A stretch of 46,415 nt of DNA, from contig NZ_WHOL01000002.1 of assembly GCF_009745975.1 (NCBI RefSeq), positions 1 through 46,415 of the forward strand, written 5' to 3'. Under the pieces are notes generated by a model. The model was given only the letters and a program-made list of their open reading frames with translations. It was not told the origin of the DNA and did not search any database. This DNA comes from Actinokineospora pegani (GTDB taxonomy: Bacteria; Actinomycetota; Actinomycetes; Mycobacteriales; Pseudonocardiaceae). Made by a program: the position numbers and the translations under genes. Position 1 is the first letter of the stretch. Each line of letters opens with the position of its first letter. Shown here piece after piece: positions 8,310 through 31,765 of this stretch.

Positions 8310-8338
8310 CACGGGTGGGGCCCTGCGGGCGGTTCACC
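8310..8338 (-). promoter_or_regulatory. ECF-type promoter P1 (GGTGAACC-N17-CGTG)
   Basis: On the minus strand GGTGAACC occupies 8338-8331 and CGTG occupies 8313-8310, with exactly 17 nt between. The -10 end lies 45 nt before the ATG at 8264. Four other sites in the window share the motif and spacing. Confidence 0.75.
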
Positions 8339-8351
8339 CGGGTCCGGAAAT

Positions 8352-9764
8352 CTAGGGTCCTGACACCTGCAGGGCGGTCTGCGTGCTCAGCAGCGGACCG
8401 CTGGGCAGCAGCGCGAGCAGGCTGGCCGGGACGGGCACCGCGGCGTCCTCGCCGTAGCCGAGGGCGGCCAGGGCGTCGGCGTCCGCGATGGGGTAGCGCA
8501 CCCCGGTCTCGGTGATCAGGTGCAGCGCGCCCGGCGCGGCGCCGGGGGCGGGCAGGTCGCGGGCGAGCACGCCCCCGCCGGTGGGCACCGCAGTGCGGTC
8601 GGCCATCGTCCCGGCCTCGTGCGGGGCCGCCGGGACGGCCTTGGCGTCTACCTCGGCCGCGGGCAGCACCGCCACCGCCACGTCCATGTCGCCGGTGCCG
8701 TTCGGTCCATAGCGGACGCAGGCCTGGGCGCCGCGTGGCGGGGTCACCAGGTCGGGCGGTCGCGGCGGCAGGCCGCTCACCAGGTCGACGCCCGGTGAGG
8801 TCGCGATCCCCTGCAGGGCGGCGGGTCCGACCTCGATGGGGGCCACCGGCCCGCTCGGGTAGGCGCGCTTGGTGTCCGGCGCGGCGAGCAGCAGGGCGGC
8901 GGTGGTCGGGCTCAGCGGGGTGACGCCGTCGGCGCGCAGCAGGTAGAGCTGGTCGGAGTCGATCGCGGGGTTGCGCACGCGGAAGACCTGGCCCACCACG
9001 GCGGCCTCGCCGTCGATCCGCGGGCCGGTCTGGCCGGTGCCCGGTGTCGCGGGCGCCGCGATGTCGCGACCCTGCTCCAGCGGGTTGAGCCAGGCCGCGG
9101 ACACCGGCAGCGGGTGGGTGTCGCCGTAGCCGAGGGTGTCGAGCACGGCGCGGTCGCCGACGCGGTGCCGCTTGCCCTGCCACACCAGGTGCGTCGACCC
9201 GTCCGGGGTGGACACCAGCAGCGCCTGGCCCTCGGTCAGGCCCGGTCGGGTCGGCCCGCCGATCAGCACGGTCACCCGCGGGCCCGCCTGCGGCGAGGCG
9301 CCGGGCGCCACGCACACCGTCCAGGGGCCGCGGTCCAGCTTGTCCGCGCCGGGGATCATGTCCGGCGCGCCCATGATACCGATGGGCTGGCCGACCGGGG
9401 TGTCGCCGAGGGAGTTGCGCGACACCGACTTCACCTCGCCCCCGCCGCCGGTCGCCAGCCGCGCCGAGGCGTAGTTGAGCACCGGGCGCAACTGGCCGCC
9501 GAGGAAGACGTAGCGGGTGCCGGTGGACTTGTCCATGACGATGGCGCCGTCCTGGCGCCAGGTGTTGTCCCCGCCCGGCTTGAACAGCCCGTAGATGCCG
9601 AAGACCGCCATCAGCACGGCCGCCAGCAGGACGCCGAACACGGTGCCGGTGTTGAGCCGCCGGTAGGGCGACTGGAGCGCGTCGGGCCTGCCGGTGGTCA
9701 CCGCGGACACCAACCGCCCCACCACGAAGAAGTAGGCTTGGACCTGGTCCCTGCGCGACTGCAT
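8352..9764 (-). CDS. eccB: Type VII secretion protein EccB
   Basis: A 470-aa protein of normal EccB length. It starts MQSRRDQVQAYFFVVGRLVS, the conserved cytoplasmic head with QVQAYxFVxxRLVSA. One membrane helix follows at about residues 43-63 (NTGTVFGVLLAAVLMAVFGI). The large extracytoplasmic part carries EccB signatures such as GTRYVFLGGQLRPVLNYASA, GIMGAPDMIPGADKL and a WTVCV segment. EccB is a core component of the ESX membrane complex and contacts EccC and the periplasm. Its start lies 1 nt after the eccD stop, so the two are co-translated in one operon. Confidence 0.95.
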   Translation of the reverse strand: MQSRRDQVQAYFFVVGRLVSAVTTGRPDALQSPYRRLNTGTVFGVLLAAVLMAVFGIYGLFKPGGDNTWRQDGAIVMDKSTGTRYVFLGGQLRPVLNYASARLATGGGGEVKSVSRNSLGDTPVGQPIGIMGAPDMIPGADKLDRGPWTVCVAPGASPQAGPRVTVLIGGPTRPGLTEGQALLVSTPDGSTHLVWQGKRHRVGDRAVLDTLGYGDTHPLPVSAAWLNPLEQGRDIAAPATPGTGQTGPRIDGEAAVVGQVFRVRNPAIDSDQLYLLRADGVTPLSPTTAALLLAAPDTKRAYPSGPVAPIEVGPAALQGIATSPGVDLVSGLPPRPPDLVTPPRGAQACVRYGPNGTGDMDVAVAVLPAAEVDAKAVPAAPHEAGTMADRTAVPTGGGVLARDLPAPGAAPGALHLITETGVRYPIADADALAALGYGEDAAVPVPASLLALLPSGPLLSTQTALQVSGP

Positions 9765-9765
9765 G

Positions 9766-11163
9766 TCAGCCCGCCAATCCGCGCATGGCCGCGTACACGC
9801 CCAGCACCTGCAGCAGGATCGGCACCACCGCGATGGCGGTGACCGACTCGAGGATCTCCACGGCCCGGCCCCAGTAGGGGCGCAGCCGCTTGCCGGGCAG
9901 GCGCTCCCCGGCCAGCAGGAGCAGCAGCCCGACGACGAGCACCGGCAGGAACACCACCAGCAGCCGCGTGCCGCCCGCCTGCTCGGCGCCGACGTGCAGC
10001 AGCGTGACCACGACGGGCACGAGCGCGGGCACGACGAACGCCCACCGCGCCGCCAGCCCGCTGGGGTGGCGGGACCGCAGCAGCAGCAGGAACGACATCA
10101 CCAGCGACAGCACGATCGACCAGCCGTGGCCGCCGACGACCAGCAGCGGCATCAGCACCGCCTGGGCCAGGCCGAGGCCGGTGTGCAGGGCGGTGGCGTA
10201 GCCGACGGTCGCGGCGCCGCGCTCGACGACCAGCTTGTGCGGGACCGGGTCGATGTCCTCGCTGAGCTCCTCGGCGCCGGTGGGCAGCATCGGCAGGGTC
10301 AGCCCGGAGAGCCGGAACGCCGTGGAGGGCACGAACGCCCCGGCGATCAGCGTCAGCGCCAGGCCGATGGCCACCGCCTGCGGCCCGGTGACCGGGGCGA
10401 GCGAGCCGATGAGCCCGGTGACCACCATGACCGAGGTGAACAGCAGGGCGCCCGCGAACAGCAGCGCGGCGTCGGCGACCGCGACGAGACCGGCGGCCAG
10501 CACGACGACCGCGGCGGTGGCCGCGGCGCTCACCCGGACCATCGGCGCCGCCTCCGGGGCCAGCACCGCCACCAGCAGGTCGCCGCCGAGGGCCGCGTAG
10601 ACCGCGGCGGCGAAGGCGAGCACCGAGGCGGGCTGCGGCTTGGCGGCGCCGCGCGCCACCAGGGCGCCCGCCCCCAGCAGCAGCACCGCGACCACCCCGG
10701 CGACCAGGGCCTGGACGCCGACCGCGCCCACCCCCGGCACCAGCAGCACCCCGAGCGCCAGCGCGGCGCCGGAGACGACGCGCAGCAGCACCCTGGTGCG
10801 GGCCGCGGTCCACGCCCCGGGGTGGTCGCGCACCTGCTCGCCGACCCCGTCGACCAGGTCGTCGAAGTCGATGGCGGCCAGCTCGTCGGCGCGCGGCCGG
10901 AAGTGCACCGTCTCCCCGTCGAGGACCTGGAGCTCGGCCAGGGTGCGGTCCTCGTCGAACGGCTGCTCGCCGACGCGCTGCACGACCCACCCCTCGTGGT
11001 CGGCGCCCTGCTCGACCCACTCCGCCCCGAACTGGGGCAGCACGGCGGGCAGCAGGTCGGTCAGCGGGACGTCGGCGGGCAGCGCCACGTCCGTCGACTT
11101 CTTCCCGAGCACGAACCGCAGCCTCACCGCGGTCCTCGTGCGTTGCTGTGTCTGCTCTTCCAT
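9766..11163 (-). CDS. eccD: Type VII secretion integral membrane protein EccD
   Basis: A 465-aa protein from the ATG at 11163 (MEEQTQQRTRTAVRLRFVLG), preceded by GGAAAGG and by the promoter at 11201-11229. The frame extends upstream to 11466 but that part overlaps the promoter and eccC. Residues about 10-95 are the ubiquitin-like YukD-type domain (KSTDVALPADVPLTDLLPAV). The rest is a chain of about 11 hydrophobic segments. EccD forms the membrane vestibule around EccC in ESX complexes. Length and domain order are normal. The eccB gene starts 1 nt after its stop. Confidence 0.93.
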   Translation of the reverse strand: MEEQTQQRTRTAVRLRFVLGKKSTDVALPADVPLTDLLPAVLPQFGAEWVEQGADHEGWVVQRVGEQPFDEDRTLAELQVLDGETVHFRPRADELAAIDFDDLVDGVGEQVRDHPGAWTAARTRVLLRVVSGAALALGVLLVPGVGAVGVQALVAGVVAVLLLGAGALVARGAAKPQPASVLAFAAAVYAALGGDLLVAVLAPEAAPMVRVSAAATAAVVVLAAGLVAVADAALLFAGALLFTSVMVVTGLIGSLAPVTGPQAVAIGLALTLIAGAFVPSTAFRLSGLTLPMLPTGAEELSEDIDPVPHKLVVERGAATVGYATALHTGLGLAQAVLMPLLVVGGHGWSIVLSLVMSFLLLLRSRHPSGLAARWAFVVPALVPVVVTLLHVGAEQAGGTRLLVVFLPVLVVGLLLLLAGERLPGKRLRPYWGRAVEILESVTAIAVVPILLQVLGVYAAMRGLAG

Positions 11164-11200
11164 CGGAGTCCGGGTCCTTTCCTGGCTGGGCACTGCGGAC

Positions 11201-11229
11201 CACGGCCGGGGGCGGCCGGGGGGTTCACC
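11201..11229 (-). promoter_or_regulatory. ECF-type promoter P2 of eccD
   Basis: On the minus strand GGTGAACC lies at 11229-11222 and CGTG at 11204-11201, 17 nt apart. The -10 end lies 37 nt before the eccD ATG. Confidence 0.78.
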
Positions 11230-11239
11230 CGCGGCCGCC

Positions 11240-11268
11240 GATGACCCTTTCCGGGGTCGGCGGCCGTG
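11240..11268 (+). promoter_or_regulatory. Weak candidate copy of the same promoter in front of eccC
   Basis: The plus strand reads GATGACCC at 11240-11247, then 17 nt, then CGTG at 11265-11268. Six of 8 bases match the -35 consensus, with the same spacing. The -10 end is 37 nt from the eccC GTG, the same distance as for eccD. Confidence 0.4.
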
Positions 11269-11305
11269 CAGGGGGTGACGAGCACCGACCGACCGAGGAG
11301 AGCAC

Positions 11306-14300
11306 GTGGGCACAGTCCTGTTCGCGCGGAGGTCGCGGCGGCCCAAGCCGACCGCCCCCGACTCCGAGATCGAGATCCAGGAGCCGCCCGCCGTACCGGA
11401 GGACACCGGCGGCGGCATGAGCTCGGTGCTGATGTACGCGCCGATGGGCCTGGGCTCGATGGCCATGGTGATGATGTTCGTCCGGCCGGGCGCCGGGGCG
11501 ATGGCCTACATCGGCGGCGGCATGATGGTGCTGTCGGTGGTCGGCATGCTCGTCGTGCAGCTCATGCGCAACTCCGTGACGCACAAGCAGAAGCTGCACG
11601 GGCACCGCCGCGACTACATCCGCTACCTGGCGCAGTTGCGCGGCCGGGTCCGCCGGTCGCTGCACTCCCAGCAGCGCGCGGCGCGCTGGGTGCACCCGGA
11701 CCCGCGCGCGCTGTGGTCGATCGCCTTGGGCTACCGGCTCTGGGAGCGCAGGCCCGCGCACGAGGACTTCGGCGAGGTCCGCCTGGGCCTGGGCGCGCAG
11801 CGCTCCTCGCTCAAGCTGCTGCCGCCGAGCACCAAGCCGATCGAGGACCTGGAGCCGATGTCGGCGCACGCGCTGCGCCGGTTCCTGCGCGCCTACTCGA
11901 CCCTGCCGGACGCGCCGATCGCGGTGTACCTGCGCGGCTTCGGGCAGATCCAGCTCAGCGGCGACGACGACGCGGTGCTCGGCCTCGTCCGCGCCCTGCT
12001 GGCCCAGTTCGCCACCGCGCACGCCCCCGGTGACGCCCGGATCGCGGTGTGCGCCTCCCCCGAGCGGGTGGACCGGTGGGACTGGGTCAAGTGGCTGCCG
12101 CACAACCAGGACCTGGACAGCCGCGACGCCGCGGGCCCCCGGCGGCTGGTGGCCGACGGCGTCGACGAGGTCGAGCTGCTGCTGGGCGGGCCGTCGTTCG
12201 CCGGCAGGCCGCGGTTCGAGGCGGACACCCCGGTCACCGCGTCGGAGCCGTTCGTGGTGCTGGTCGTCGACGGGGTGCGCGTGCCCGGCGACCACCGCGT
12301 CGCCGACGAGGGCTACCGCAACGCCGTCGTGCTCGACGTGTCCGGCTCGCTGCCCTGGCAGCAGCGCCCCGGGGTGCTGTTCCTGGAGGTGGACGCGGAC
12401 GAGGCGCGCACGGTCTCCTTCGACCGGCTGGGCAAGCCGCAGACGTCCCCGCTGTGCAGGCCGGACCAGCTCAGCGCCGGGGCGGCGGACGCGCTGGCGC
12501 GCACCATGGCCCGGTTCCGGGTCGGCGAGGCCGCCGAGGACGACGAGCCGATGGCCGCCGACTACGACCTGGCCGGGCTGCTCGGCCTGGGCGACGTGGG
12601 CCGGTTCGACCCGGTCAGGTACCGCCGCGAGCGGATGACGGCCAAGCGGCGGCTGCGGGTGCCCATCGGCATCGCCGCCAACGGCACGCCGCTGGAGCTC
12701 GACATCAAGGAGGCCGCCGAGGACGGCATGGGCCCGCACGGGCTGTGCATCGGCGCCACCGGCTCCGGCAAGTCCGAGCTGCTGCGCACGCTGGTGCTGG
12801 GGCTGGCCGCCACGCACACCTCGGAGGACCTCAACTTCGTGCTGGTGGACTTCAAGGGCGGCGCGGCGTTCCTCGGCTTCGACGAGCTGCCGCACACCTC
12901 CGCGGTGATCACCAACCTGTCCGAGGAGCTGGAGCTGGTCGACCGCATGCAGGACGCGCTGGCGGGCGAGATGAACCGGCGCCAGGAGTACCTGCGCGCG
13001 TCGGGCAACTACGCCTCGCGCCGCGACTACGAGGCCGCGCGCGCCCAGGGCGTGCCGCTGGAGCCGATGCCCGCGCTGTTCATCGTCGTCGACGAGTTCT
13101 CCGAGATGCTCTCGGCCAAGCCGGACTTCATCGACCTGTTCGCCATGATCGGCCGCCTCGGCCGCTCGCTGGGCGTGCACCTGCTGCTGGCCTCGCAGCG
13201 GCTCGACGAGGGCCGCATCCACAAGATCGAGACGCACCTGTCGTACAAGATCGGCCTGCGCACCTTCTCCGCCATGGAGAGCCGCAGCATCCTGGGCGTC
13301 CCGGACGCCTACGAGCTGCCCAACAGCCCGGGCAACGGCTACCTGCGCCCGGACACCCAGACGCTGGTCCGGTTCAAGGGCGCGTTCTCCTCCTCGCCCT
13401 ACCACACGAAGCCGCGGGTGCGTCCCGACGACGGCGTGGAGCAGCGGGTCGTGCCGTTCGGCACCGCCTACATCGAGCCGCCCACCGCCCCGGAGCCCGA
13501 GCCGGAGCCGGAGCCCGCCACCGGCGAGGTCACCGAGACCATGCTCGACGTGCTCATGGGCAGGCTGCGCGGGGTGGGCCCGCGGGCGCACCAGGTGTGG
13601 CTGGCGCCGCTGAAGGAGTCGGCCACGCTCGACCAGTTGCTGCCGCCGCTGGTGGACGACCCGGAGCTGGGCCTGCGCCCGGTCGGCGACCTGATGGCCT
13701 CGGAGCTGACCGTGCCGCTGGGCCTGGTCGACCTGCCCGCGCAGCAGAAGCGCGACCTGCTGGTGGCCGACCTGTCCGGCGGCAAGGGCAACGCGGCGGT
13801 GATCGGCGGCCCGCAGAGCGGCAAGTCGACGATGCTGCGCACCATCATCGCCTCGCTGGCGCTGACCCACAGCGCCGCGGAGGTGCAGTTCTACTGCCTG
13901 GACTTCGGCGGCACGCTGAGCTCGCTGGCGAAGCTGCCGCACGTGGGCAGCGTCGCCAACCGGCTCGACCGCGACCGGGTCACCCGCACCGTGCTCGAGG
14001 TCGCCAACATCATGGCCAAGCGCGAGGAGCTGTTCGCCGAGCACAACATCGACTCGATGGGCACCTACCGGCGGGCCCGCCGCTCGGGCCGCTTCCGCGA
14101 CCTGGACCCCTACGGCGACGTGTTCCTGGTGGTCGACGGCTGGTACACGATCAAGCAGGACTTCGACGAGCTCGAGGAGCAGTTCACCGAGATCGCCGCG
14201 CGCGGGCTCAGCTTCGGCGTGCACCTGCTGATCTCGTCGAGCCGGTGGGCGGAGATGCGGCCGTGGCTGCGCGACGTGCTCGGCACCCGGTTCGAGCTCA

Positions 14301-15289
14301 AGCTCGGCGACCCGACCGACTCCGAGATCAACAGCCGGTTCGCCGCGACCGTCCCGGCCATCCCCGGCCGCGGCATCACCCCGGACCGGCTGCACTTCCT
14401 CGCCGCGCTGCCGCGCATCGACGGCCAGTCCGACACCGACGACCTCGCCGAGGCCACGGTCGAGCTGGCCGAGGCGCTGGCCGTCCCCGGCGGCCCCGCG
14501 GCCCCGAAGGTGCGCCTGCTGCCGCACACCCTGTCGGTCGCCCAGCTCCCCGCCCCCACCGCGCCGTCGAAGGCCGCCGAGGTCCGCATCCCCCTCGGCA
14601 TCGATGACGTCGAGCTCGGCCCCCTGTGGCACGACTTCGACGCCAGCCCGCACCTGCTCGTCTACGGCGACGCCGAGACGGGCAAGACCAACCTGCTGCG
14701 CCACATCGCCCGCTCCATCGTCGCCCACCACGGCAACGACGAGGCCCGCATCATGTTCGGCGACTTCCGCCGCGAACTGCGCGACTGCGTCCCAGCCGAC
14801 CACCAGATGGAGTACGCCGTCGGCGCCGAGGCCCTGACCAAGTCCATCGCCGGCGCCGCCACGGTCATCCAGCAGCGCGTCCCCGGCCCGGACATCCCCC
14901 CGAGCCGCCTCCCCAAGCGCGACTGGTGGCAGGGCGGCCGCCTCTACATCATCATCGACGACTTCGAGATGACCGAGGGCGCGGGCAGCGCAGGCCCCCT
15001 GGCGCCCCTCGTCCCCCTCCTCGCCGACGCCGCCGACGTGGGCGTGCACATCATCATCGCCCGCAGCACCGCGGGCGCCGGCCGCTCGATGTCGAACCAG
15101 GCGATCCGGAAGATGTGGGAGCTGGGGACGCCCGCGCTGCTGCTGTCGTGCCCGAAGCAGGAGGGGTCGTTCCTGGGCACCCTCAAGCCCCGGACGCTGC
15201 CGGTGGGGCGTGGGCAGTACATCAACCGGCGGCGGTCGGTGCGGTTGGTGCAGACGCCGTTGGTGGAGGTGCCGGAAGCCGTGGAGTAG
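11306..15289 (+). CDS. eccC: Type VII secretion motor ATPase EccC (FtsK/SpoIIIE family)
   Basis: A 1327-aa fused EccCa/EccCb protein starting at GTG 11306 behind GAGGAG. Two hydrophobic helices (about residues 38-88) anchor it in the membrane. Three nucleotide-binding domains follow. The first has GATGSGKSELLRTL at about 485, FVLVDFKGGAAF and LFIVVDEFSEML. The second has GGPQSGKSTMLRTI at about 834 and FYCLDFGGT. The third has YGDAETGKTNLLRHI at about 1119. Walker A lysines are present in all three, while the third Walker B region (YIIIDDFEMTEG) is atypical. EccC recognises substrates through its distal ATPase and drives export. It is divergent from eccD across a 142-bp region and ends in a 25-bp stem. 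Confidence 0.96.
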   Translation: MGTVLFARRSRRPKPTAPDSEIEIQEPPAVPEDTGGGMSSVLMYAPMGLGSMAMVMMFVRPGAGAMAYIGGGMMVLSVVGMLVVQLMRNSVTHKQKLHGHRRDYIRYLAQLRGRVRRSLHSQQRAARWVHPDPRALWSIALGYRLWERRPAHEDFGEVRLGLGAQRSSLKLLPPSTKPIEDLEPMSAHALRRFLRAYSTLPDAPIAVYLRGFGQIQLSGDDDAVLGLVRALLAQFATAHAPGDARIAVCASPERVDRWDWVKWLPHNQDLDSRDAAGPRRLVADGVDEVELLLGGPSFAGRPRFEADTPVTASEPFVVLVVDGVRVPGDHRVADEGYRNAVVLDVSGSLPWQQRPGVLFLEVDADEARTVSFDRLGKPQTSPLCRPDQLSAGAADALARTMARFRVGEAAEDDEPMAADYDLAGLLGLGDVGRFDPVRYRRERMTAKRRLRVPIGIAANGTPLELDIKEAAEDGMGPHGLCIGATGSGKSELLRTLVLGLAATHTSEDLNFVLVDFKGGAAFLGFDELPHTSAVITNLSEELELVDRMQDALAGEMNRRQEYLRASGNYASRRDYEAARAQGVPLEPMPALFIVVDEFSEMLSAKPDFIDLFAMIGRLGRSLGVHLLLASQRLDEGRIHKIETHLSYKIGLRTFSAMESRSILGVPDAYELPNSPGNGYLRPDTQTLVRFKGAFSSSPYHTKPRVRPDDGVEQRVVPFGTAYIEPPTAPEPEPEPEPATGEVTETMLDVLMGRLRGVGPRAHQVWLAPLKESATLDQLLPPLVDDPELGLRPVGDLMASELTVPLGLVDLPAQQKRDLLVADLSGGKGNAAVIGGPQSGKSTMLRTIIASLALTHSAAEVQFYCLDFGGTLSSLAKLPHVGSVANRLDRDRVTRTVLEVANIMAKREELFAEHNIDSMGTYRRARRSGRFRDLDPYGDVFLVVDGWYTIKQDFDELEEQFTEIAARGLSFGVHLLISSSRWAEMRPWLRDVLGTRFELKLGDPTDSEINSRFAATVPAIPGRGITPDRLHFLAALPRIDGQSDTDDLAEATVELAEALAVPGGPAAPKVRLLPHTLSVAQLPAPTAPSKAAEVRIPLGIDDVELGPLWHDFDASPHLLVYGDAETGKTNLLRHIARSIVAHHGNDEARIMFGDFRRELRDCVPADHQMEYAVGAEALTKSIAGAATVIQQRVPGPDIPPSRLPKRDWWQGGRLYIIIDDFEMTEGAGSAGPLAPLVPLLADAADVGVHIIIARSTAGAGRSMSNQAIRKMWELGTPALLLSCPKQEGSFLGTLKPRTLPVGRGQYINRRRSVRLVQTPLVEVPEAVE

Positions 15290-15296
15290 GCCGGGG

Positions 15297-15634: not shown

Positions 15635-16864
15635 TCAGCCCTTGGCGGGCCGGGGTGGCGCGACCTGGACGGTTCTGGCGCGGCGCCACTGGCGGGTGCG
15701 GGCCGCGGACATGAGGCGGGAGCCCATGACCAGGGCGGGGATCAGCAGGACCACGGCGACCACTCCCGTGCCCGCCAGCACCGGGCCCACCTCGTCGTGC
15801 GGGGCGGGAACCGGGGGTTGGGCCGCCGGTGGGGCGACGACGGGGGCGGCGGTGGTTGATTCCCCCGGGAGGATGGCGGTGACGGCGGCCATGGGGTTGA
15901 CCGTGCCCCAGCCGAGGCCGGGGTCGGGCAGGGTGGTGGCGGGGTGGTTGGCGGTGGCCTCGAGGCGGTGCTTGACCTGGGCCGCGGTCAGGTGCGGGCG
16001 GTAGGCGCGGACCAGGGCGGCGGTGCCCGCGACGAACGGGGCGGCGTAGCTGGTGCCGCTGCCCTGCCAGTGGCCGGGGCCCTTGGGGCCGAGGCTGACC
16101 ACGTCCACGCCGGGGGCGACGAGGGACAGGTGGGGGCCGGTCTGGGAGAAGTCGGCGCGGGCGCCTGCGACGTCGACGGCGCCGACGGCGATCACGCTGG
16201 GGTAGGACGCCGGGAACGGTGTGGTCGCGCCGTCGCGGGCGCCGTTGGAGGCGGAGGCGACCACGACGACGTCGTTGGCCTCGGCGTGGTCGACCGCGGC
16301 GGCGAGGTCGGGTGAGTCGATGGCGGTGCTGGCCGAGATGTTGACCACCCGGGCGCCCGCGTCGACCGCCGCGCGGATGCCCTGGGCCATGCTCGCGGGC
16401 GTCAGGGCGCCGGGCTTGCCCTCCCCGACCGCGGTCGCGACGCGGATCGGCAGGATCGTGGCGTCCGGGGCCACGCCCACGAACGCCGTGCCCTCCCCCG
16501 CGCCCGCGGCGATGATGCCCGCGAGGAACGTGCCGTGCCCGTAGCAGTCGCTGTCGGCCCGGGCGCCGGGCGCGATCACGTCGATGCCGGGCAGCACCCG
16601 GCCGCCCGCGAGCTGCGGGACGCTCGAGTCCACCCCGGTGTCGACGACGGCGACGACGACGCCCGCGCCGCGGCTGACCGGCCAGACCCGGTGCGGCGCG
16701 AGCTGCTTCTGCGCCCAGGGCACCTCCGTGGCGCTGCCCTGCGGAGCGGGCAGGCAGGCGTCGTTCGACGTGGGCAAGCCGGGCACGGACTGCTGGGCGG
16801 CGGCCGTGGGCGCCAAGACGACGGTGGCCGCCGCGGTGGCGAGGACGAATCGCAGCGCGCGCAT
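15635..16864 (-). CDS. mycP: Mycosin, type VII secretion-associated subtilisin-like serine protease
   Basis: A 409-aa protein from the ATG at 16864 (MRALRFVLATAAATVVLAPT), which is a Sec signal peptide. The S8 catalytic triad is visible as Asp75 (VVDTGVD), His110 (GHGTFLAG) and Ser272 (GTSYAAPFVAG), with Asn207 in ASASNG as the likely oxyanion residue. A Pro-rich linker leads to a C-terminal membrane helix (about 355-380, GTGVVAVVLLIPALVMGSRL) and a basic tail. Mycosins are membrane-anchored proteases required for ESX complex stability. The start overlaps the upstream stop by one base (TGATG). A frame continuing further upstream is shadow of the neighbouring gene. Confidence 0.95.
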   Translation of the reverse strand: MRALRFVLATAAATVVLAPTAAAQQSVPGLPTSNDACLPAPQGSATEVPWAQKQLAPHRVWPVSRGAGVVVAVVDTGVDSSVPQLAGGRVLPGIDVIAPGARADSDCYGHGTFLAGIIAAGAGEGTAFVGVAPDATILPIRVATAVGEGKPGALTPASMAQGIRAAVDAGARVVNISASTAIDSPDLAAAVDHAEANDVVVVASASNGARDGATTPFPASYPSVIAVGAVDVAGARADFSQTGPHLSLVAPGVDVVSLGPKGPGHWQGSGTSYAAPFVAGTAALVRAYRPHLTAAQVKHRLEATANHPATTLPDPGLGWGTVNPMAAVTAILPGESTTAAPVVAPPAAQPPVPAPHDEVGPVLAGTGVVAVVLLIPALVMGSRLMSAARTRQWRRARTVQVAPPRPAKG

Positions 16865-19662: not shown

Positions 19663-22074
19663 CTACTGGGGCACGGGCTGGGCGGCGATCTCCAGGTCGT
19701 CGACCGTGAGCAGGGTCAGGTCGGCGGCGTCGACGGTGGCGTTGGCGGCCAGCCGGGACGCCTGCCGGTCGGTCATCCGCTCGAAGACGCGCCTGGCCGT
19801 GCGGCCGTTGCCGAAGGTGCCGTCCTTCGGGATCTCCTCGAAGTGGCGCAGCAGCGCGTCGGCGGCCGCCTCGTCGAGGCGGTAGTCGTGCCGGGCGCAC
19901 TGGGACTCGACGATGGTCACCAGCTCCTCGGCGGTGTAGTTGGCGAAGTCGATGGTGCGGCTGAACCGCGACTCCATGCCGGGGTTGGCCGCGAGGAAGC
20001 CCGCCATCTCCTTGGAGTAGCCCGCGGCGATGACCACCACCTCGTCGCGGCGGTCCTCCATCAGCTTGACCAGGGTGTCGATGGCCTCGCGGCCGAAGTC
20101 CGGGCCGGTGCCGCCGCCGCCCTGGCTGAGCGTGTAGGCCTCGTCGATGAACAGCACGCCGCCCAGGGCGCTGGTGAACGCCTCGGTGGTCTTGATCGCG
20201 GTGCCGCCGATGATCTGCGCGACCAGGTCGGCGCGGGCCACCTCGACCAGGTGCCCCTTGGCGAGCACGCCGAGCTGGGCGAGGATCTGGCCGTAGAGGC
20301 GGGCGACGGTGGTCTTGCCGGTGCCCGGGGCGCCCGCGAACACCAGGTGCCTGGCCATCGGCGGGGCGGACAGGCCCGCGTCCCTGCGGCGCTTGGCCAT
20401 CTTGTTCAGGTTGACCAGCGAGGTGACGTCGCCCTTGACCCCGGCGAGGCCGACCAGGCCCTGCAGCTCCAGCAACGGGTCCGACCCGGCGGCGACGCGC
20501 TCCCTGGGCTCCTCGGGGGCGGCCGGGCCCGCGTCGGCGGTGGCCGCGGTGCCGAAGGCGTCGGCGACCCGGTTGCCGCTGGTGATCAGGTCGATGACCT
20601 CGATGGCCGAGCCGGGCCGGGTCTGGCGGACGCCGCTGCCCGCGTTGTCGCGCACGGTGCAGCCCGACACCCGCACCGACTCCCCGGTGTCGATCCGGAT
20701 GCCGTCGGCTGAGCCGGAGGAGAACTCCGAGCCCGTCACCGACCCCGAGGACCCCTCGGCGAACAGCAGACCCGGGCCCGTGCTGCCGTGCACGCGGCAC
20801 CGCAGCACGGACACGTCCGCCCCGGCGCCCGCGTGCAGGCCCTCGGCCCCCGCGGCCTCGACCGCGGAGTCGACCAGCGTCAGCGCCGCCTCGACCACGC
20901 GGACCCCGGCCGCGGCGGTGTTGCGCACGCCCAGCCCGCTGACCGAGGGCCGCGCGCCGCCGGACACCACGAGCCCGCCCGCGCGGCCGCCGTCGACCTC
21001 GACGTTCTCCAGGGTGCCCCGGGCCGAGCCCGCCACCTCGATGGCGTCGCCGTCGCAGCCGATGACGCGCAGGCGGCGCAGCAGCGGGTCGGCGCCGTCG
21101 TCGAGCAGGACGCCGGTGCCGCAGCCGGAGACGGTGGTCCGGTCGAACTCGGTGACGCTGCGGCCGCCGACCGCGAGGCCGACGCCGTCGACGTCGGCCA
21201 CCGCGCAGTCGGACACGGTGCCGCCCGCCCGGCCGCCGAAGAACACACCGCGACCGCGCGCGCCGCGCACGGACAGACCGCGCAGCACCGGCGCGCAGCC
21301 CTCGGCGACGAACACGCCCTCGCCGCCCGAGCGCTCCACCGAGCAGTCCTCCAGGACGACCTGGTCGCTGCTGGCCAGGTAGAAGCCGATGGCCCCGACG
21401 TCGGACACCGCGAGCCGCGACGCGGTCAGCGCCGCCTGCTGCTCGATGGCGATGGCGGGCTTGCCCGTGCGGGACACCGCGGTGTCCTCGACGGTGAGCC
21501 TGCCGCGGCCGTTGAGGCAGATGCCGTTGCCCCCGGCGCCGTCCAGCGAGCACGCGCGCATCAGCAGGGCGCCGTCGTCGGCGACGACCACCGCGGAGGT
21601 GCCCAGTTCGACGAAGCGGCAGTTGTCCAGCACCCCCCCGCGCGGCGAGGTGACCACGACCCCCGCCCCGACCTCGTTGCGGACCTCGCAGTCGCGCATC
21701 ACCACGCTGCCGTCGTCACGGGCGAACACGGTGGTCCAGCTCGACGCCGTCAGCGAGCACTCGGTCAGGCCGAGCTGCCCGGCGCCCACGAGCACGGCGG
21801 GGCTGTCGGCGTCGGCGGCCACCACGACCAGCCCGGACAGGGCGGCGGAGTCGGCGGTCAGCGCCACGGCCACACCGGAGGCGGCCACCAGGCGCACCGT
21901 GCCGGGGCCGTCCTCGGCGGTGATGGTGACGGGGCGGGTGATGACCAGGTTCTCGCTGTAGCGGCCGGGGCCGACGAGGATGACCGCGCCATCGGGCGCG
22001 CCCGCCACGGCGTCGCCGATGCTGCGGTGCCCGCGGCCAGGGGTCTGGGAGACCTGCACGACGTTGCGGCTCAC
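19663..22074 (-). CDS. Right-handed beta-helix / AAA+ (EccA/CbbX-type) fusion protein (803 aa)
   Basis: It starts at GTG 22074 ([20 protein letters not shown]) behind GAGGAGAGG. Residues about 10-510 are parallel beta-helix repeats of 22-25 residues, with ladders such as [20 protein letters not shown] and recurring CEVRN, CSLDG and CAVAD turns. This fold is common in carbohydrate-active and surface proteins. Residues about 535-800 form a CbxX/CfqX AAA+ module: [11 protein letters not shown], Walker [10 protein letters not shown] at about 579, Walker [10 protein letters not shown] at about 638, and the arginine-finger region [10 protein letters not shown] at about 704. EccA has an N-terminal TPR domain instead, so the beta-helix replaces the usual adaptor. 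It has its own ECF-type promoter and precedes the 921-aa gene by 34 bp. Confidence 0.85.
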
Positions 22075-22137: not shown

Positions 22138-22166
22138 CACGCGCCGCCGCGCGGGTTTGGTTCACC
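22138..22166 (-). promoter_or_regulatory. ECF-type promoter P3 of the beta-helix/AAA gene
   Basis: On the minus strand GGTGAACC lies at 22166-22159 and CGTG at 22141-22138, 17 nt apart. The -10 end is 63 nt before the GTG at 22074. The -35 element contains the stop codon of the upstream SseB-like gene. Confidence 0.75.
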
Positions 22167-22707
22167 CGGCCGGGGCCACCGCCGCGATCGACCGGACGAC
22201 CTCGGCCGGGACGCGCATGGCGGCGGGTCCACCGAGGTTGAGCACCACGTCGATCCCCCGCTCGGGCAGCGCCTCGGCGAGCCACCGCACGTCGACCCGG
22301 AGCCAGCCCGCGGCGTCCACCGGCGCGCGGTGGCCCGCCGCGGTGGTCACCAGGACCGAGGGCACGCCGTCGGGCGCCGCGCCGACGAGCACGTCCCCCT
22401 CCTCGTCCACCGCGACCCCCAGCACGGCGTCGCGCAGCAGCACGGGCAGCTCGTCGGCGGACTCGCCGCGGGCCGCCGCGCGCAGCACCGCGTCGACCGG
22501 GTCCAGCGGCGAGTCGGGCGAGGACGGCGTGTAGACGGGGTTGGGCTGGAACCCGCCGCGCACCCCGTCGGTGACCGGCCAGGCGCCGAGCACGGCGGAC
22601 ACCGGCGGGTCGGGCTCGGCGTCGGTGGACTCCCAGGCGATGTCGATGAGCAGGAGCAGGCCGTCCGTCTCCGGCTCGGGTGCGCTCGTCACGGGACTTC
22701 CTCTCAT
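22162..22707 (-). CDS. SseB-like type VII secretion-associated protein (181 aa)
   Basis: It is compact and acidic. The C-terminal half matches the SseB N-terminal-domain pattern seen in actinobacterial ESX loci: DEEGDVLVGAAPDGVPSVLV, a middle WLRVDVRWLAEALPERG, and the closing VVLNLGGPAAMRVPAEVV. SseB was named for a type III secretion chaperone, and the actinobacterial versions are of unknown function. Two starts are possible: ATG 22707, which overlaps the upstream stop as ATGA, or GTG 22692 (VTSAPEPETDG), which has AGAGGAAG just before it. Both fit coupling to the 691-aa gene. No membrane segment is present. I infer a cytosolic chaperone or regulator. Confidence 0.65.
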   Translation of the reverse strand: MRGSPVTSAPEPETDGLLLLIDIAWESTDAEPDPPVSAVLGAWPVTDGVRGGFQPNPVYTPSSPDSPLDPVDAVLRAAARGESADELPVLLRDAVLGVAVDEEGDVLVGAAPDGVPSVLVTTAAGHRAPVDAAGWLRVDVRWLAEALPERGIDVVLNLGGPAAMRVPAEVVRSIAAVAPAG

Positions 22708-24779: not shown

Positions 24780-25182
24780 CGAATCCCTTCCGATCGGACC
24801 CCGGCGGGCGGGGTGGCTCTACCTCCTCCACGGGCGGGGTCTTCCTGGGGGTTCACCGTTCGGCGCACCAAGCCCGACTGGGCGGCCTCCGTGGCCACGG
24901 CCGTCAGCGGCGCCATCCGCGAAGCGGTTCCATGGGCCTTCCGGAAGGTCCGCAAGGACCGGAGGGGCAGGCCGGTTCTCCGCGCCGAGACCGCACGACC
25001 TCGAACAGGCCGGCGGCTGTGGCCCCCCATCCCCTGTCTAGGCCGTGTTTCGGAAGTTCGTTCGATGAGAGTCGTGATCGGTGGGGCTCGGTGGCGGTGC
25101 GGGGTGGAGGTGCCGGTACCGGTGTTCCGTCAGGGGCCGCATCCGGCGCGGCTATCGCGGACAGCGGCCTTCGAAACACGGC
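24780..25182. other. 403-bp noncoding region upstream of the pseudo-ART/SseB operon
   Basis: It contains promoter P4 (24829-24857), a 12-bp palindrome CCTTCCGGAAGG (24937-24948), and a small inverted-repeat element (25038-25186). No gene is supportable. Confidence 0.6.
24829..24857 (-). promoter_or_regulatory. ECF-type promoter P4 of the 691-aa gene
   Basis: On the minus strand GGTGAACC lies at 24857-24850 and CGTG at 24832-24829, 17 nt apart. The -10 end is 49 nt before the ATG at 24779. Confidence 0.76.
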
Positions 25183-25186
25183 CTAG
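25038..25186. mobile_element. 149-bp MITE-like element or insertion sequence remnant
   Basis: The ends are perfect 15-nt inverted repeats: CTAGGCCGTGTTTCG at 25038-25052 and its complement at 25172-25186. CTAG at both outer ends could be a target duplication or part of the repeat. The inside has no transposase. The right-end CTAG supplies the TAG stop codon of the gene at 25183-27348, so insertion touched that gene's 3' end. Confidence 0.6.
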
Positions 25187-27348: not shown

Positions 27349-27356
27349 CAGCGGCC

Positions 27357-28022
27357 CTACCCGTCGATCCGGCGGGCCTGCAGGTACGCCAGCACCGCCA
27401 GCACCCTGCGGTGGTGCACGGAGGGGTCGCCGGAGAGGTCGAGCTTGGTGAAGATGGCGGCGATGTTCTTCTCCACCGCCTTCACCGAGATGAACAGCTC
27501 CCCCGCGATGGCGTTGTTGGTGCGGCCCTCGGCCATCAGCCGCAGCACGTCGTGCTCGCGCTCGGTCAGCTTGTCCAGCGCGCCGCCGTCGCGGCCCGCG
27601 GGGGTCTGCACCAGGCGCTTGGCCAGCACCGGCTCGATGACGATCTCGCCGTCGCAGATGCGGTCGAGGGTGTCGTTGAGGACCTGGACGCCCGCGACGC
27701 GCTCCTTGAGCCGGTAGCCGATGCGCTCGGTGCCGATCTCCAGCACGCGCATGAGGTAGTGGGTCTCGGCGTAGTGCGACAGCAGCAGCAGACCGGTCTG
27801 CGGCCGCATGGCGCGGATGCGCTCCGCGGTGACCAGGCCGCCGTCGGGCTCGGGGGGCATGCGGATGTCGAGGATGGCGACGTCGACCTGCTCGGTGGCG
27901 ATCAGCGCCAGCAGCCGGTCGCCGTCGTCGACGCAGCCGACGACCTGGTGGCCCGCGGCCTCCAGCAGCAGGACCAGGCCCTCGCGGAACAGGGCGCCGT
28001 CCTCGGCGATCGCTACGCGCAC
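27357..28022 (-). CDS. NarL/LuxR-family response regulator
   Basis: A 221-aa protein starting at GTG 28022 (VRVAIAEDGALFREGLVLLL). The receiver domain has the acidic pair ED at 7-8, phospho-acceptor Asp52 in AILDIRMPP, a Ser in LLLSHYAE, and Lys106 in GYRLKERV. The C-terminal LuxR helix-turn-helix (about 150-205) carries LTEREHDVLRLMAEGRTNNA and SVKAVEKNIAAIFTKL. It is the expected partner of the small kinase, whose end overlaps this start by 10 nt. It lies upstream of the histidine-less kinase-like gene. Its targets are unknown. The divergent Hsp70 promoter region with its 14-bp palindrome is a candidate. Confidence 0.9.
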   Translation of the reverse strand: MRVAIAEDGALFREGLVLLLEAAGHQVVGCVDDGDRLLALIATEQVDVAILDIRMPPEPDGGLVTAERIRAMRPQTGLLLLSHYAETHYLMRVLEIGTERIGYRLKERVAGVQVLNDTLDRICDGEIVIEPVLAKRLVQTPAGRDGGALDKLTEREHDVLRLMAEGRTNNAIAGELFISVKAVEKNIAAIFTKLDLSGDPSVHHRRVLAVLAYLQARRIDG

Positions 28023-28600
28023 CGGACCACCGCCCAGTGCCTGCGCCCGGACCCGGCCTCGGAGATGCCGACGCGCACGTACCGCTTGCCCGCGCGCACC
28101 CGGACCGCCACCGCGGCGCCCTCGGCGAGGGTGCGCAGGTGGTCGGCGATGAGCAGGCAGGTCCGGGCGCGGGCGCCGGGTTCCAGGTCGGGCGCGCTGA
28201 GGTCGAGGTCGAGGGTGATGCCCTGGCGCTCGGCCACCGACCGCAGCGCTGGCTCGATGCCCGCGCCGGTCAGCACCGGCGGGTAGAGCGCCTCCCCGAC
28301 CCGGCGCAGGTCGTCGAGCACGAGGTGGACTGCGTCCTGGGCGGCGTCCACGCGGTCGCGCACGCAGGGGTCTGTTGCGGTCACGGCGAGCAAGCCTAGC
28401 TCCAGGGACAGGGCCGACACGCGCAGCGCCGGTCCGTCGTGCACGAGCTGCTCCAGCCGGTGCCGCAGCTCGGTCGTGCCGGGCGACGGCGGGCGGAGCC
28501 GGGTGGGCAGGGCGCCCAGCCGGCTCAGCAGCAGGCCGTGCAGCCGTCCGAACACCACCCCAGCGTGGTCGAACGGGGTGCCGGTAACAAGGGGGAACAC
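28013..28600 (-). CDS. Short NarL-type sensor histidine kinase (195 aa)
   Basis: It starts at GTG 28600 (MFPLVTGTPFDHAGVVFGRL), although an internal GTG is possible. The H-box LEQLVHDGPALRVSALSLEL contains the H-D-G motif with the phospho-His and a downstream Arg, as in HisKA_3 kinases. A second helix (VHLVLDDLRRVGEALYPPVL) completes the dimerisation domain. The ATPase region (about 120-190) is short, and clear N, G1 and G2 boxes are not visible. The protein has no membrane segment or sensor domain. It may be a cytosolic phosphotransfer protein or a reduced kinase that needs the histidine-less kinase-like protein encoded downstream. Confidence 0.7.
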   Translation of the reverse strand: MFPLVTGTPFDHAGVVFGRLHGLLLSRLGALPTRLRPPSPGTTELRHRLEQLVHDGPALRVSALSLELGLLAVTATDPCVRDRVDAAQDAVHLVLDDLRRVGEALYPPVLTGAGIEPALRSVAERQGITLDLDLSAPDLEPGARARTCLLIADHLRTLAEGAAVAVRVRAGKRYVRVGISEAGSGRRHWAVVRCA

Positions 28601-28644
28601 CCCGTGTCTGGTAGGGATGTCCCCATATCGCCGAAGACACGATT

Positions 28645-28658
28645 ACGATCCGGATCGT
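28645..28658. promoter_or_regulatory. 14-bp perfect palindrome in the divergent kinase/Hsp70 region
   Basis: ACGATCCGGATCGT is a perfect palindrome in an AT-richer patch of the 145-bp region between the kinase start (28600) and the Hsp70 start (28746). It is a candidate operator. Confidence 0.45.
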
Positions 28659-28745
28659 TTCCCTGGGTGAGCGGGACGAGCAAGGCGCCGACGGGATAAT
28701 GGGCCGGGAACACGTGCAGGGAACGCAACGCAGGGGAGTGCGGCA

Positions 28746-30611
28746 GTGGGTTACGGGCTCGGCATAGATCTCGGCACGACGTTCACCGCCGCCGCGGTCG
28801 CCCGGGATTCGGGCACGCGGATGGTGCCGCTGGGCGATGAGGTGATCATTCCCTCGGTCGTGTACTCGACCGCGAAGGGCGCGCTGCTGACCGGCAACGC
28901 CGCGGAGGTGGTCGGGGCCAAGGACCCGGCGCGGCTGTCGCGCGGCTACAAGCGCAGGCTCGGCGACCCGACGCCGCTGGTCATCGGCGGCGTGGCCTAC
29001 TCCCCCGCCGCGCTGCTGGCCGCGCAGCTCGAGGAGGTGGTCGCCTACGTGACCGCCGTGGAGGGCGGCGGCCCGGACTCGGTCGTGCTGACCTGCCCGG
29101 CGGTGTGGGGCCCCTACCGGCGCGAGCACTTCGACGAGGTGCCGAGGCTGGCCGGGCTGCCCGGGGCGCGGATCGTGACCGAGCCGGAGGCGGCGGCCAC
29201 GCACTACTCGATGGAGCGCAGGCTCGGCGAGGGCGAGCTGGTCGCGGTCTACGACCTCGGCGGCGGCACGTTCGACACCACGATCCTGCGCGCCCGCGAC
29301 GGCGGCATGGAGATCCTGGGCACGCCGGAGGGCGTGGAGCGGCTGGGCGGCATGGACTTCGACGAGGCGCTGATGGCGCACGTCAACTCCCGCCTCGACG
29401 GCGCGGTGACCGCGCTGGACCCGGCGGACCCGGACTCGGCGCAGGCGCTGGCGGCCATCCGCGCGCTGTGCGTGAAGGCCAAGGAGGAGCTGTCCTCCGA
29501 GCCGGACGTGACGCTGCGGGTCCCGCTGCCCAGCGGCGAGCGCGAGCTGCTGGTGTCCCGGGTCGAGTTCAACGAGATGATCAAGCCCTCGGTGGAGCTG
29601 ACCACCGAGGCGCTCAACCGCACCATCGCCTCGGCCGGGCTGCGCCCCGACGACCTCGCGGCCGTGCTGCTGGCGGGCGGGTCGTCGCGCATCCCGCTGG
29701 TGGCGCAGATGGTGTCCGACGCGTTCGGCAGGCCGGTCCGCGTGGGCCTGCACCCCAAGTACACCGTCGCCCTGGGCGCGGCCGCGGTCTCGCGGACGCC
29801 CGCGATCGCCCAGCTCGACCCCACGGTCACCCCGCCGTCCGGCCAGCGGCTGCCCACGGGCGGCCCGGGCTCGCCGCCGTCGCTGCCCGGTCCGTCCAGC
29901 GGCAGGCCGAAGTGGCTGGTGCCGGTGGCCGCGGCGGCGTCGGTGCTGCTGGTGGCCGCCATCGCCACCGCGTTCCTCACCAGCGGCGGGGACGACGCCC
30001 CGGGCGGGGAGGTCACCCCGGCCGCGGGCGGTACGGACGCCTCGGACATCTCGGAGGTCAAGATCTACGACCGCGCCGACGTCGCCCCGTTCAAGAGCAT
30101 CATCGGCTCCGCGCAGAACTGGAGCGGCACCTACCTCGGCGGCGCGCGGACCGCCGAGCACGCCGAGATCAAGGTGGAGCCGGGCAAGGTCGGCGACGAG
30201 GACGGCCTGCACGCCACGTGGGCGGGCCAGGGCCCGGCCCAGCTCTACTTCCAGGACACCCGCGGCGGCCGGGACATGAGCGCCTACCTGACCGCCGAGA
30301 CCGCGCTGGTGTTCGACGCGGTCGTGACCACCCCGCCCGCCTCGAACGTCTCCATCGGCGTGCACTGCGAGTACCCGTGCGGCGGCCACGTGGACGCGAC
30401 AGCGCTGTTCAACAGCCTGCCGCCGGGCGAGAAGTCGACTGTGCGCATCCCGCTCTCGTGCTTCGTCGCGGACGGGCTCGACGCCGAGGAGGTCGACACG
30501 TTCCTGCTGATCTACTCCGAGGCCGCGCTGGACCTGTCGGTGGCGAACGTGCGGTGGACGCCGCAGGCGGCGACCGAGCCGGGCGCCCTCAACTGCGACG
30601 GCAGCAGCTAG
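28746..30611 (+). CDS. Membrane-anchored Hsp70-type ATPase with extracytoplasmic carbohydrate-binding-like domain (621 aa)
   Basis: It starts at GTG 28746 (MGYGLGIDLGTTFTAAAVAR) after GGGGAG. Residues 1-375 are a complete DnaK-like nucleotide-binding domain: IDLGTTFTAAAV, TCPAVWGPYRREHF, the VTEPEAAATHYS motif, YDLGGGTFDTTIL at about 169, and LLAGGSSRIPLV. The substrate-binding domain of DnaK is absent. A Pro-rich linker leads to one membrane helix (about 390-411, VPVAAAASVLLVAAIATAFL). Residues about 440-621 resemble the galactose-binding-like jelly roll at the end of some GH3 glucosidases (QNWSGTYLGG, RGGRDMSAYL, RIPLSCFVADGLD), with paired cysteines. It is divergent from the two-component genes. 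I infer an envelope sensor or chaperone. Confidence 0.85.
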   Translation: MGYGLGIDLGTTFTAAAVARDSGTRMVPLGDEVIIPSVVYSTAKGALLTGNAAEVVGAKDPARLSRGYKRRLGDPTPLVIGGVAYSPAALLAAQLEEVVAYVTAVEGGGPDSVVLTCPAVWGPYRREHFDEVPRLAGLPGARIVTEPEAAATHYSMERRLGEGELVAVYDLGGGTFDTTILRARDGGMEILGTPEGVERLGGMDFDEALMAHVNSRLDGAVTALDPADPDSAQALAAIRALCVKAKEELSSEPDVTLRVPLPSGERELLVSRVEFNEMIKPSVELTTEALNRTIASAGLRPDDLAAVLLAGGSSRIPLVAQMVSDAFGRPVRVGLHPKYTVALGAAAVSRTPAIAQLDPTVTPPSGQRLPTGGPGSPPSLPGPSSGRPKWLVPVAAAASVLLVAAIATAFLTSGGDDAPGGEVTPAAGGTDASDISEVKIYDRADVAPFKSIIGSAQNWSGTYLGGARTAEHAEIKVEPGKVGDEDGLHATWAGQGPAQLYFQDTRGGRDMSAYLTAETALVFDAVVTTPPASNVSIGVHCEYPCGGHVDATALFNSLPPGEKSTVRIPLSCFVADGLDAEEVDTFLLIYSEAALDLSVANVRWTPQAATEPGALNCDGSS

Positions 30612-30629
30612 ACGAGTAATGCGCGAGTC

Positions 30630-31088
30630 AGGGCGGTGACCGCCTGGCCGGTGGTCGGCGTATGGGCAGGCCACCGAAGCTGCCCGATTCCGAACTGGTC
30701 ACCCTGGCGGTGGCCCAGGCGTTGTTGGGGTTCGCCTCCGAGGCCCGCTGGTTGTGGGCGGTGCCGGTGCGCTTCCCGGGGGCGTTTCGGCAGCTGCCCG
30801 GCCAGTCCGGCTACAACCGCCGCCTGCGGCCCTCGGCCTTGACCCGGTCACCTGGGCGTTGGCCGACCCCAAGATCGACGAGCGGCAAGTGCTCATGACC
30901 CTCTGCGACCCCGAACCCCACCTGCTCGACCAGTGCCCTGGACTGTTGATCATCGCCGACAAGGGCTACGTCTCCCGCGAACTCGACCACTTCCTGCACC
31001 ACGCCTCCTCGCGTTGACCGCCGCCATCTGGCACAACCACGTCACCGGACAACCCGTCACCCGATCCCTGACCGCCTACGACCACTGA
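30630..31088 (+). pseudogene. IS982-family transposase remnant, internally deleted and frameshifted
   Basis: Three pieces in different frames match an IS982 transposase. The N-terminal part (from about 30662) reads LPDSELVTLAVAQALLGFAS and GQSGYNRRLR. The C-terminal catalytic part (about 30830-31017) reads ALADPKIDERQVLM and LLIIADKGYVSRELDHFL. The tail (31014-31088) reads LTAAIWHNHVTGQPVTRSL before its stop. The middle third is missing and at least two frameshifts are present. No terminal inverted repeats were identified. It separates the Hsp70 gene from the hypothetical/sigma pair. Confidence 0.8.
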
Positions 31089-31097
31089 CCGACTTGT

Positions 31098-31697
31098 CTA
31101 GCTGGCCTGCGACAGCGGCGCGGGGGCGGGCGCCGAGCGGTGGCGGTCCAGGTGGGTCAGGGTCGCCATCGGGGCGGGGACCGGGTCGACCGCCTCGTCG
31201 CCGAGGTAGTCCAGCAGGTGCTGGCGCTCGTCGACCTCGGTGATCAGGTCGTGGGCGATGGTGTCGGACCACAGGAGCGTGGCGGCCAGCAGGGCGGCCT
31301 CGTGGTAGTCGGGCAGCGGTGTGGACGGGCCGAAGACCTCGACGCGCGGGACGCTCTCCCCCGCAGACTCCAGCGCGCGCTGCACCGCGGCGGTGACGGC
31401 GGGCAGGTCGGCGGCTGCCGCGGTCCGGACGAGGTGGACCGGGTCGCGCGCGTCCCGCAGGGCGACCCAGCAGGCCGTGACCGGCAGGTGCGCGAGCGCC
31501 TCGACGACGGCCGCGTCCGTCTCCGCCGGAGCGGCCGGGGCGAAGTCCGGGACGCGGGGGACCTCGTCGGTGAGCAGCGCGAGCAGTGCGCTCATCCGCT
31601 CGGTCTCGCCGTCGGCCAGCGCCTCGCGGGCGACGACCAGCAAGCTGTCGGGCGCCGCGCCCGCCAGGGCGAGCAGCCGCGTGTGCGGTGTGGGCAT
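31098..31697 (-). CDS. Hypothetical protein of the ECF-type promoter regulon (199 aa)
   Basis: From the ATG at 31697 (MPTPHTRLLALAGAAPDSLL) it is a soluble, acidic, largely helical protein without a signal or membrane segment. I do not recognise a family. Visible features are an alanine-rich N-terminal half, the segment HLPVTACWVALRDARDPVHL, and a Pro/Ala tail ending PAPLSQAS. The longer in-frame start at 31739 is rejected because the promoter motif lies at 31737-31765. Sharing that promoter with eccD and other secretion genes, and being divergent from the ECF sigma gene, suggests a role in the type VII module or in control of the sigma factor. There is no zinc-binding HxxxCxxC anti-sigma motif. 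Confidence 0.6.
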   Translation of the reverse strand: MPTPHTRLLALAGAAPDSLLVVAREALADGETERMSALLALLTDEVPRVPDFAPAAPAETDAAVVEALAHLPVTACWVALRDARDPVHLVRTAAAADLPAVTAAVQRALESAGESVPRVEVFGPSTPLPDYHEAALLAATLLWSDTIAHDLITEVDERQHLLDYLGDEAVDPVPAPMATLTHLDRHRSAPAPAPLSQAS

Positions 31698-31736
31698 CGG
31701 AGCCGTCCGATCTCCTCGGGGCCAGGACGACCGGCA

Positions 31737-31765
31737 CACGGGCCCCCACCCGCCGTGGGTTCACC
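31737..31765 (-). promoter_or_regulatory. ECF-type promoter P5 beside the ECF sigma gene
   Basis: On the minus strand GGTGAACC lies at 31765-31758 and CGTG at 31740-31737, 17 nt apart. The -10 end is 39 nt before the ATG at 31697. The sigma gene starts 210 nt away in the opposite direction. Confidence 0.76.

Follow-up and report, generated by a model that had tools for sequence, protein, structure and literature searches.

A two-box motif with a fixed 17-nt spacer at a type VII secretion locus of Actinokineospora pegani and its association with a SigL-group ECF sigma factor gene

The window analysed here, meaning the whole 46,415-nucleotide (nt) stretch of Actinokineospora pegani DNA (contig NZ_WHOL01000002.1), carries a type VII secretion locus and a gene for an extracytoplasmic function (ECF) sigma factor of the SigL group, and a search of both its strands for the motif GGTGAACC-N17-CGTG returned five exact copies. 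We consider it likely that this locus-encoded factor, hereafter the window sigma (31975-32478), drives its own type VII system through promoters that share the motif. An earlier note on this DNA had described five minus-strand copies with exactly 17 nt between the boxes, lying 37 to 63 nt ahead of start codons, and a weaker plus-strand copy ahead of eccC; all were recovered at these positions, with the following measured gaps.

8310..8338, minus strand: predicted promoter 1, exact match, 45 nt from CGTG to the start of the WXG-like gene 7929-8264
11201..11229, minus strand: predicted promoter 2, exact match, 37 nt from CGTG to the start of eccD, at 11163
11240..11268, plus strand: variant promoter GATGACCC-N17-CGTG, two mismatches, 37 nt upstream of the eccC GTG start
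22138..22166, minus strand: predicted promoter 3, exact match, 63 nt ahead of the beta-helix/AAA gene
24829..24857, minus strand: predicted promoter 4, exact match, 49 nt ahead of p691
31737..31765, minus strand: predicted promoter 5, exact match, 39 nt ahead of the hypothetical gene 31098-31697
2809..2837, minus strand: possible extra site GATGAACC-N17-CGTG, one mismatch, within the open reading frame (ORF) 2549-4222 and 262 nt ahead of a YbaB-like gene

The locus has the makeup of an actinobacterial type VII secretion locus, with eccB, eccC, eccD, a mycosin and a WXG100 protein all scoring above curated cut-offs; no eccE was found among the window proteins scanned, and the WXG-like protein 7929-8264 had no family match in the profile search. 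The genes that bear on the argument are as follows.

7545..7853, minus strand: WXG100 protein (TIGR03930 above its cut-off)
8352..9764, minus strand: eccB (TIGR03919, 361.9 bits against a cut-off of 154)
9766..11163, minus strand: eccD (TIGR03920, 197 bits against a cut-off of 94.95)
11306..15289, plus strand: eccC (TIGR03924 and TIGR03925 above their cut-offs)
15635..16864, minus strand: mycosin, mycP (TIGR03921, 322.6 bits against a cut-off of 278.75)
19663..22074, minus strand: beta-helix and AAA protein (Pfam Beta_helix and AAA above their cut-offs)
22162..22707, minus strand: p181, type VII secretion system-associated protein (NF033532, 133.3 bits against a cut-off of 85)
31975..32478, plus strand: SigL-group ECF sigma factor, probably the one that reads the promoters (Sigma70 r2 and r4)

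Judging by gene order and strand, each site may head a co-transcribed unit. The WXG-like gene, the WXG100 gene and more minus-strand genes lie behind promoter 1, eccD and eccB behind promoter 2, and eccC behind the plus-strand variant, while promoter 3 precedes the beta-helix/AAA gene, p921 and the mycosin gene, promoter 4 precedes p691 and p181, and promoter 5 precedes the hypothetical gene beside the divergent sigma gene. With these contents, eccB, eccC, eccD, the mycosin gene and the WXG genes all stand behind the motif or its variant, and eccC belongs in the regulon set. The C-terminal part of the beta-helix/AAA protein is EccA/SpoVK-like, with the EccA model below its cut-off. The structure predicted for the hypothetical protein 31098-31697 has a mean predicted local distance difference test score of 75.4, and a Foldseek search of the PDB with this model found no hit with an E of 0.001 or lower.

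The motif is rare. A genome-wide search, the check that the earlier note had proposed, returned eight exact matches in 6,438,191 bases, five of them in this 46 kb contig. When any spacer from 14 to 20 nt was allowed, the window yielded the same five sites, compared with a shuffle mean of 0.05, and five sites were reached in 0 of 100 shuffles. Relaxing the pattern to GTGAACY-N17-CGTG gave 11 genome matches, with five in the window, and the same pattern with an N20 spacer, used as a control, gave three, with none in the window. At up to three mismatches the window contained 54 matches against an expected mean of 84.35, and this lack of enrichment indicates that only near-exact sites carry signal.

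The spacer is distinctive in relatives as well. Across the type VII and sigma loci of 10 congeners (genus Actinokineospora; 735 kb in all), a spacer of k = 17 accounts for 46 occurrences of TGAAC[CT]-Nk-CGTG, whereas the other values of k from 6 to 30 average 3.6 sites and reach at most 12 (k = 19); spacers in codon phase with 17 (8, 11, 14, 20, 23, 26 and 29) have zero to three sites each. For half of the N17 sites (23/46), a homolog of a window gene begins less than 150 nt downstream, compared with 1 of 70 sites for the other spacers (k 8-26 except 17). The congener stretches were partly picked for motif hits, which biases site density, and the finding that 36 of 72 relaxed N17 genome matches of the 10 congeners fall in the chosen stretches, where the N20 control has 1 of 42, is subject to the same biased selection; the comparison between spacers is free of it, because all spacers were counted inside the same DNA. 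The peak extends beyond the genus, since 21 loci of other genera (414 kb) contain 21 sites at k = 17 and 10 at the next most frequent spacer (k = 7). At the level of individual sites, promoters 1 to 4 have orthologous sites in G004, with promoter 1 ahead of the same gene, and promoter 5 has one in G002 ahead of a homolog of the same hypothetical gene. One congener locus, from G003, matches Actinokineospora sp. NBRC 105648 without a difference over 3453 nt.

The extra site at 2809-2837 is also present in G004, and G011 and G015 each have an exact site 53-80 nt ahead of a YbaB-like homolog ORF, with a one-mismatch site near such a homolog in G006. The site may serve the YbaB-like gene as an internal promoter, or the copy could be a coding coincidence.

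A natural experiment is provided by eccC. Similarity to EccC was the sole criterion for choosing its loci, which keeps this test clear of the selection bias noted for the congener stretches, and 30 of the 37 matches from the 16 genomes were used. Twenty-nine of these were scorable (L218 was left out), and the upstream search extended up to 300 nt. In the clade that accompanies the sigma, each of the 11 eccC genes carries the N17 motif, with no more than two mismatches, 36-60 nt upstream of the start, while none of the other 18 scorable copies has it within 100 nt upstream. The 18 motif-less copies comprise paralogous systems in the same genomes (including that on contig C117 of the source genome, G000), additional members of the clade in G002 and G008, and a clade member of G014, a genome without a close sigma ortholog; one of them, L205, has a two-mismatch match 244 nt away. 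The association of motif with clade has a Fisher p of 2.9e-8, a value that overstates independence because the genomes are related.

The window sigma is a protein of 167 residues in which Sigma70_r2 and Sigma70_r4 score above their cut-offs, and with regions 2 and 4 only it has the domain plan of an ECF factor. Of the 16 genus genomes, 11 (counting the window's own) encode orthologs with at least 63% identity, G004 having two, and none was found in G007, G010, G012, G013 or G014, where the best match had 53% identity. In eight congeners (G001, G003, G005, G006, G008, G009, G011 and G015) the sigma gene and eccC share a strand, the sigma gene follows at a distance of 1.3-4.5 kb, and mycP lies between the two or close by; in G002 the sigma gene is on a separate contig from eccC. 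G004 stands outside this linkage count, as contig ends cut the sigma neighbourhood; its two type VII sigma copies (C14:1-432 and C245:1629-2114, one of them cut by a contig end) show 90% and 77% identity to the window sigma. Among 200 sampled family genomes, 26 have a sigma match at 1e-40, spread over 7 of 46 genera. Genes of this locus (eccC/eccB/mycP, hsp70, beta-helix/AAA, hypothetical, p691 or p721) accompany 17 of 18 orthologs from outside the genus in the stretch read, L249 having none, and eccC, eccB and mycP occur together only at L239 and L248. No genes of this locus were found in the stretch read around the SigL-type loci L257 and L258.

Compared with solved structures in the PDB, the window sigma is closest to SigL of Mycobacterium tuberculosis (3.6e-24), followed by SigE (1.7e-14). 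In a phylogenetic tree it groups with 10 type VII-linked rows (99/81), and other SigL-like rows, including M. tuberculosis SigL, fall across an 85/98 branch that is below the support mark of the tool. This placement points to a SigL-group paralogue rather than SigL itself, and an assignment as the SigL ortholog was rejected: sigmas of the C54 and L059 types outscore the window sigma against SigL, SigL lies across the 85/98 branch, and NCBIfam NF007227 gives 153 bits against a cut-off of 202. SigM was likewise rejected as the closest relative, as the NCBIfam SigM model gives 66.8 bits against a cut-off of 190 and the SigL-type model scores best. The type VII-linked label needs 2 changes on the tree compared with 22.0 in shuffles, a strong clustering, but a single origin of the link is recovered in only 17% of bootstrap trees. 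Two Saccharopolyspora rows with eccC nearby lie on the SigL side, and L181 and L184, both from Saccharopolyspora, are the loci with both eccC and mycP near among the 80 sigma-homolog loci listed.

The −10 box agrees with what is published for SigL. The accessible part of PMC6372665 describes a SigL −10 of T-12 G-11 N C/A A G that is preferably preceded by CG, specificity residues His54 and Asp60, and a preference for T+1 G+2 at the start. Thus CGTG can be understood as CG plus TG, and all five exact sites have CG followed by TG; the 8310 copy continues with TCAG and matches the −10 given there in full. In the alignment with SigL, Asp60 is kept as Asp53 of the window sigma, and in a further alignment His is found at the His54 position in 7 of 8 congener rows. 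Among 43 sites of this group, a set that contains the window's own sites and probably a few chance ones, T (70%) and G (77%) predominate 8 and 9 nt past CGTG, which suggests that transcription starts about 8-9 nt past CGTG. As for the −35 element, that of SigL is reportedly TGAACC.

The spacing differs around related sigmas. Around SigL-like genes without eccC nearby (72 loci among the matches listed, 1.35 Mb), the peak is at N16, with 23 sites, compared with four at N17. An N16 site lies upstream of 8 of 80 SigL-like sigma genes among the loci listed (L109-L188) and ahead of 3 of 12 SigL-type sigma genes of the genus and family, with 0 of 6 for the C54 type and 0 of 30 for sigma genes of the type VII type. 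TGAACC-N16-CGTG was also observed ahead of both sigma genes at L236 and L237, which are without type VII genes (2/2). Together these sites hint that SigL-like sigmas without type VII genes activate themselves through a 16-nt spacer.

In the mechanism we propose, GGTGAAC(C/T) as the −35 element, the 17-nt spacer and CGTG as the −10 element would form the promoter of one ECF sigma, which together with RNA polymerase would read TGAAC through region 4 and CGTG through region 2, and the structural and substrate units of the type VII system would be switched on together. The sigma could also boost its own synthesis in eight congeners, as the sigma gene follows eccC there and eccC has the promoter, and the loop may be lost in the window, where the sigma gene is separated from eccC and no copy of the motif precedes it. 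The earlier note's view that an ECF-type regulon spans the type VII locus holds up in the fixed spacing, the placement before type VII genes, the conservation in congeners and the co-occurrence with an ECF sigma gene; promoter use, the sigma that reads the sites, the start points, the feedback and the signal are what we infer from DNA. It is also possible, and we suggest this only tentatively, that a SigL-related clade has become dedicated to one type VII system, insulated by a spacer of 17 rather than 16 nt and, in most of the genus species that have the sigma, placed behind eccC-mycP, its own target unit, as a positive feedback switch for secretion.

Several observations weigh against a dedicated window sigma. 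None of the sigma genes of the type VII type has a site of this kind upstream (0 of 30 loci). The residue of the window sigma that aligns with SigL His54 is Asn47, and the window sites other than that at 8310 are without a full match to the SigL −10 given in the part of PMC6372665 available. Outside the genus only 2 of 21 N17 sites are tied to homologs of window genes, so target conservation there is weaker or undetected. G007, G010 and G014, which have no type VII sigma, share TGAACC-N17-CGTG ahead of a non-secretion operon (L294:10343, L295:8423 and L296:8744), from which it follows that related sigmas may read similar sequences. Finally, the source genome has another SigL-like sigma, on contig C54, and further SigL-like sigma groups are present in the genus.

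These last points bear on the alternative that the sites are ECF promoters read by another SigL-group sigma, such as that on C54, with the window sigma a passenger or acting on other targets. The C54 sigma does score better against SigL (8.9e-31 compared with 3.6e-24), and the three genomes sharing an N17 site ahead of the non-secretion operon have no window sigma. However, C54-like matches (42-45% identity) also occur in G007, G010, G013 and G014, which have neither the window sigma nor the motif before a scored eccC, SigL-like loci without eccC among the matches listed peak at N16 and not N17, and the motif tracks the presence of the window sigma, even where the two are unlinked in G002. We regard this alternative as unlikely. 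It is considerably less probable still that the boxes are half-sites of a transcription factor, activator or repressor, spaced 17 nt apart with no sigma involved. An element that could be of this kind exists, as GGTGAAC(C/T) without CGTG is kept ahead of a sigE-like gene in 16 of 16 genomes within an apparent inverted repeat, but at our sites the two boxes are unlike in sequence and lie 37-63 nt from starts in the window, with similar distances in congeners, CGTG fits the ECF −10 as published in the part of PMC6372665 available, and an ECF sigma gene accompanies the motif. That the sites arose by chance or as a by-product of high GC content is scarcely credible: the absence of a window excess at up to three mismatches and a relaxed-pattern background of a few matches per genome would be in keeping with it, but the 0.05 sites expected from shuffles and the placement before orthologous genes are not, and the spacing and eccC controls refute it. 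The most likely reading is that the window sigma acts on its own locus.

Six relaxed matches lie outside the window. The one at C68:57328-57355 (L266) is 26 nt upstream of the start of a 202-residue protein that shares its type VII-associated family with p181 (42% identity), and this gene is probably an unlinked regulon member, a paralogue of p181. A match on C43 ahead of the sigE-like gene was rejected as a member, as the complete motif occurs only in G000. The GGTGAAC(C/T) octamer ahead of that gene (L009 ~9065-9093 and L278-L293) is often followed by AAGGTCACC, resembles an inverted repeat and represents a different conserved element. Relaxed matches on C60, C86, C99 and C101 were also rejected and appear to be background; close behind those on C86, C99 and C101, no predicted gene begins on the same strand. 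A very small ORF directly follows the relaxed motif at C60:76406-76433 (L265), and it could encode a short peptide.

The stretch 25183-30611 of the window encodes an Hsp70 whose C-terminal domain is galactose-binding-like, two proteins that resemble a kinase and a response regulator, and a 721-residue protein (p721) weakly similar to histidine kinases. Homologs of the Hsp70 and of the 721-residue protein accompany the sigma in other genera. No motif site lies ahead of the Hsp70 gene (28746-30611) or the kinase- and regulator-like genes (27357-28600), and Hsp70 and the two-component-like genes are, by position, candidates for control of the sigma. No anti-sigma factor of the RslA type was detected by Pfam among the nine neighbour genes scanned in seven congeners, and a gene about 3 kb from the sigma in G001 (L098:2102-3157) matched no family.

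As far as the searched literature shows, little has been described about the activation of type VII secretion outside mycobacteria; among the open-licence papers searched, none came up that describes a sigma both serving a type VII locus exclusively and encoded within it, and the accessible parts of PMC10449499 and PMC9205884 contain nothing on this motif. A promoter code paired with a locus-encoded sigma would make the regulon predictable from DNA and open to a clean genetic test. The code can also find unlinked substrates and has already led to a probable one on C68, and the contrast of N17 here with N16 in related sigmas offers a testable case of promoter insulation through spacer length.

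Three known systems invite comparison. Mycobacterial SigM has a −10 of the CGTC type, is encoded outside the esx-4 locus and belongs, by best match, to another sigma lineage. It is nevertheless of the ECF kind and turns on a type VII secretion locus, according to the part of PMC10117145 available, and this aspect of the SigM precedent invoked in the earlier note stands, although the closest solved relative of the window sigma is SigL and not SigM. The sigmaE regulon of Streptomyces coelicolor shares AAC in the −35 and has spacers modelled at 16 or 17, but the −10 boxes listed in the available part of PMC6767563 are mostly CGTC and the targets concern the cell envelope. M. tuberculosis SigL, which works with the anti-sigma RslA (accessible part of PMC2877774), a partner not found among the neighbours scanned here, comes closest to the window sigma among solved structures and shares CGTG in the −10 (as far as PMC6372665 is accessible); the window sigma differs from it as a paralogue with other targets and with N17 sites here, in contrast to the N16 of SigL-like loci.

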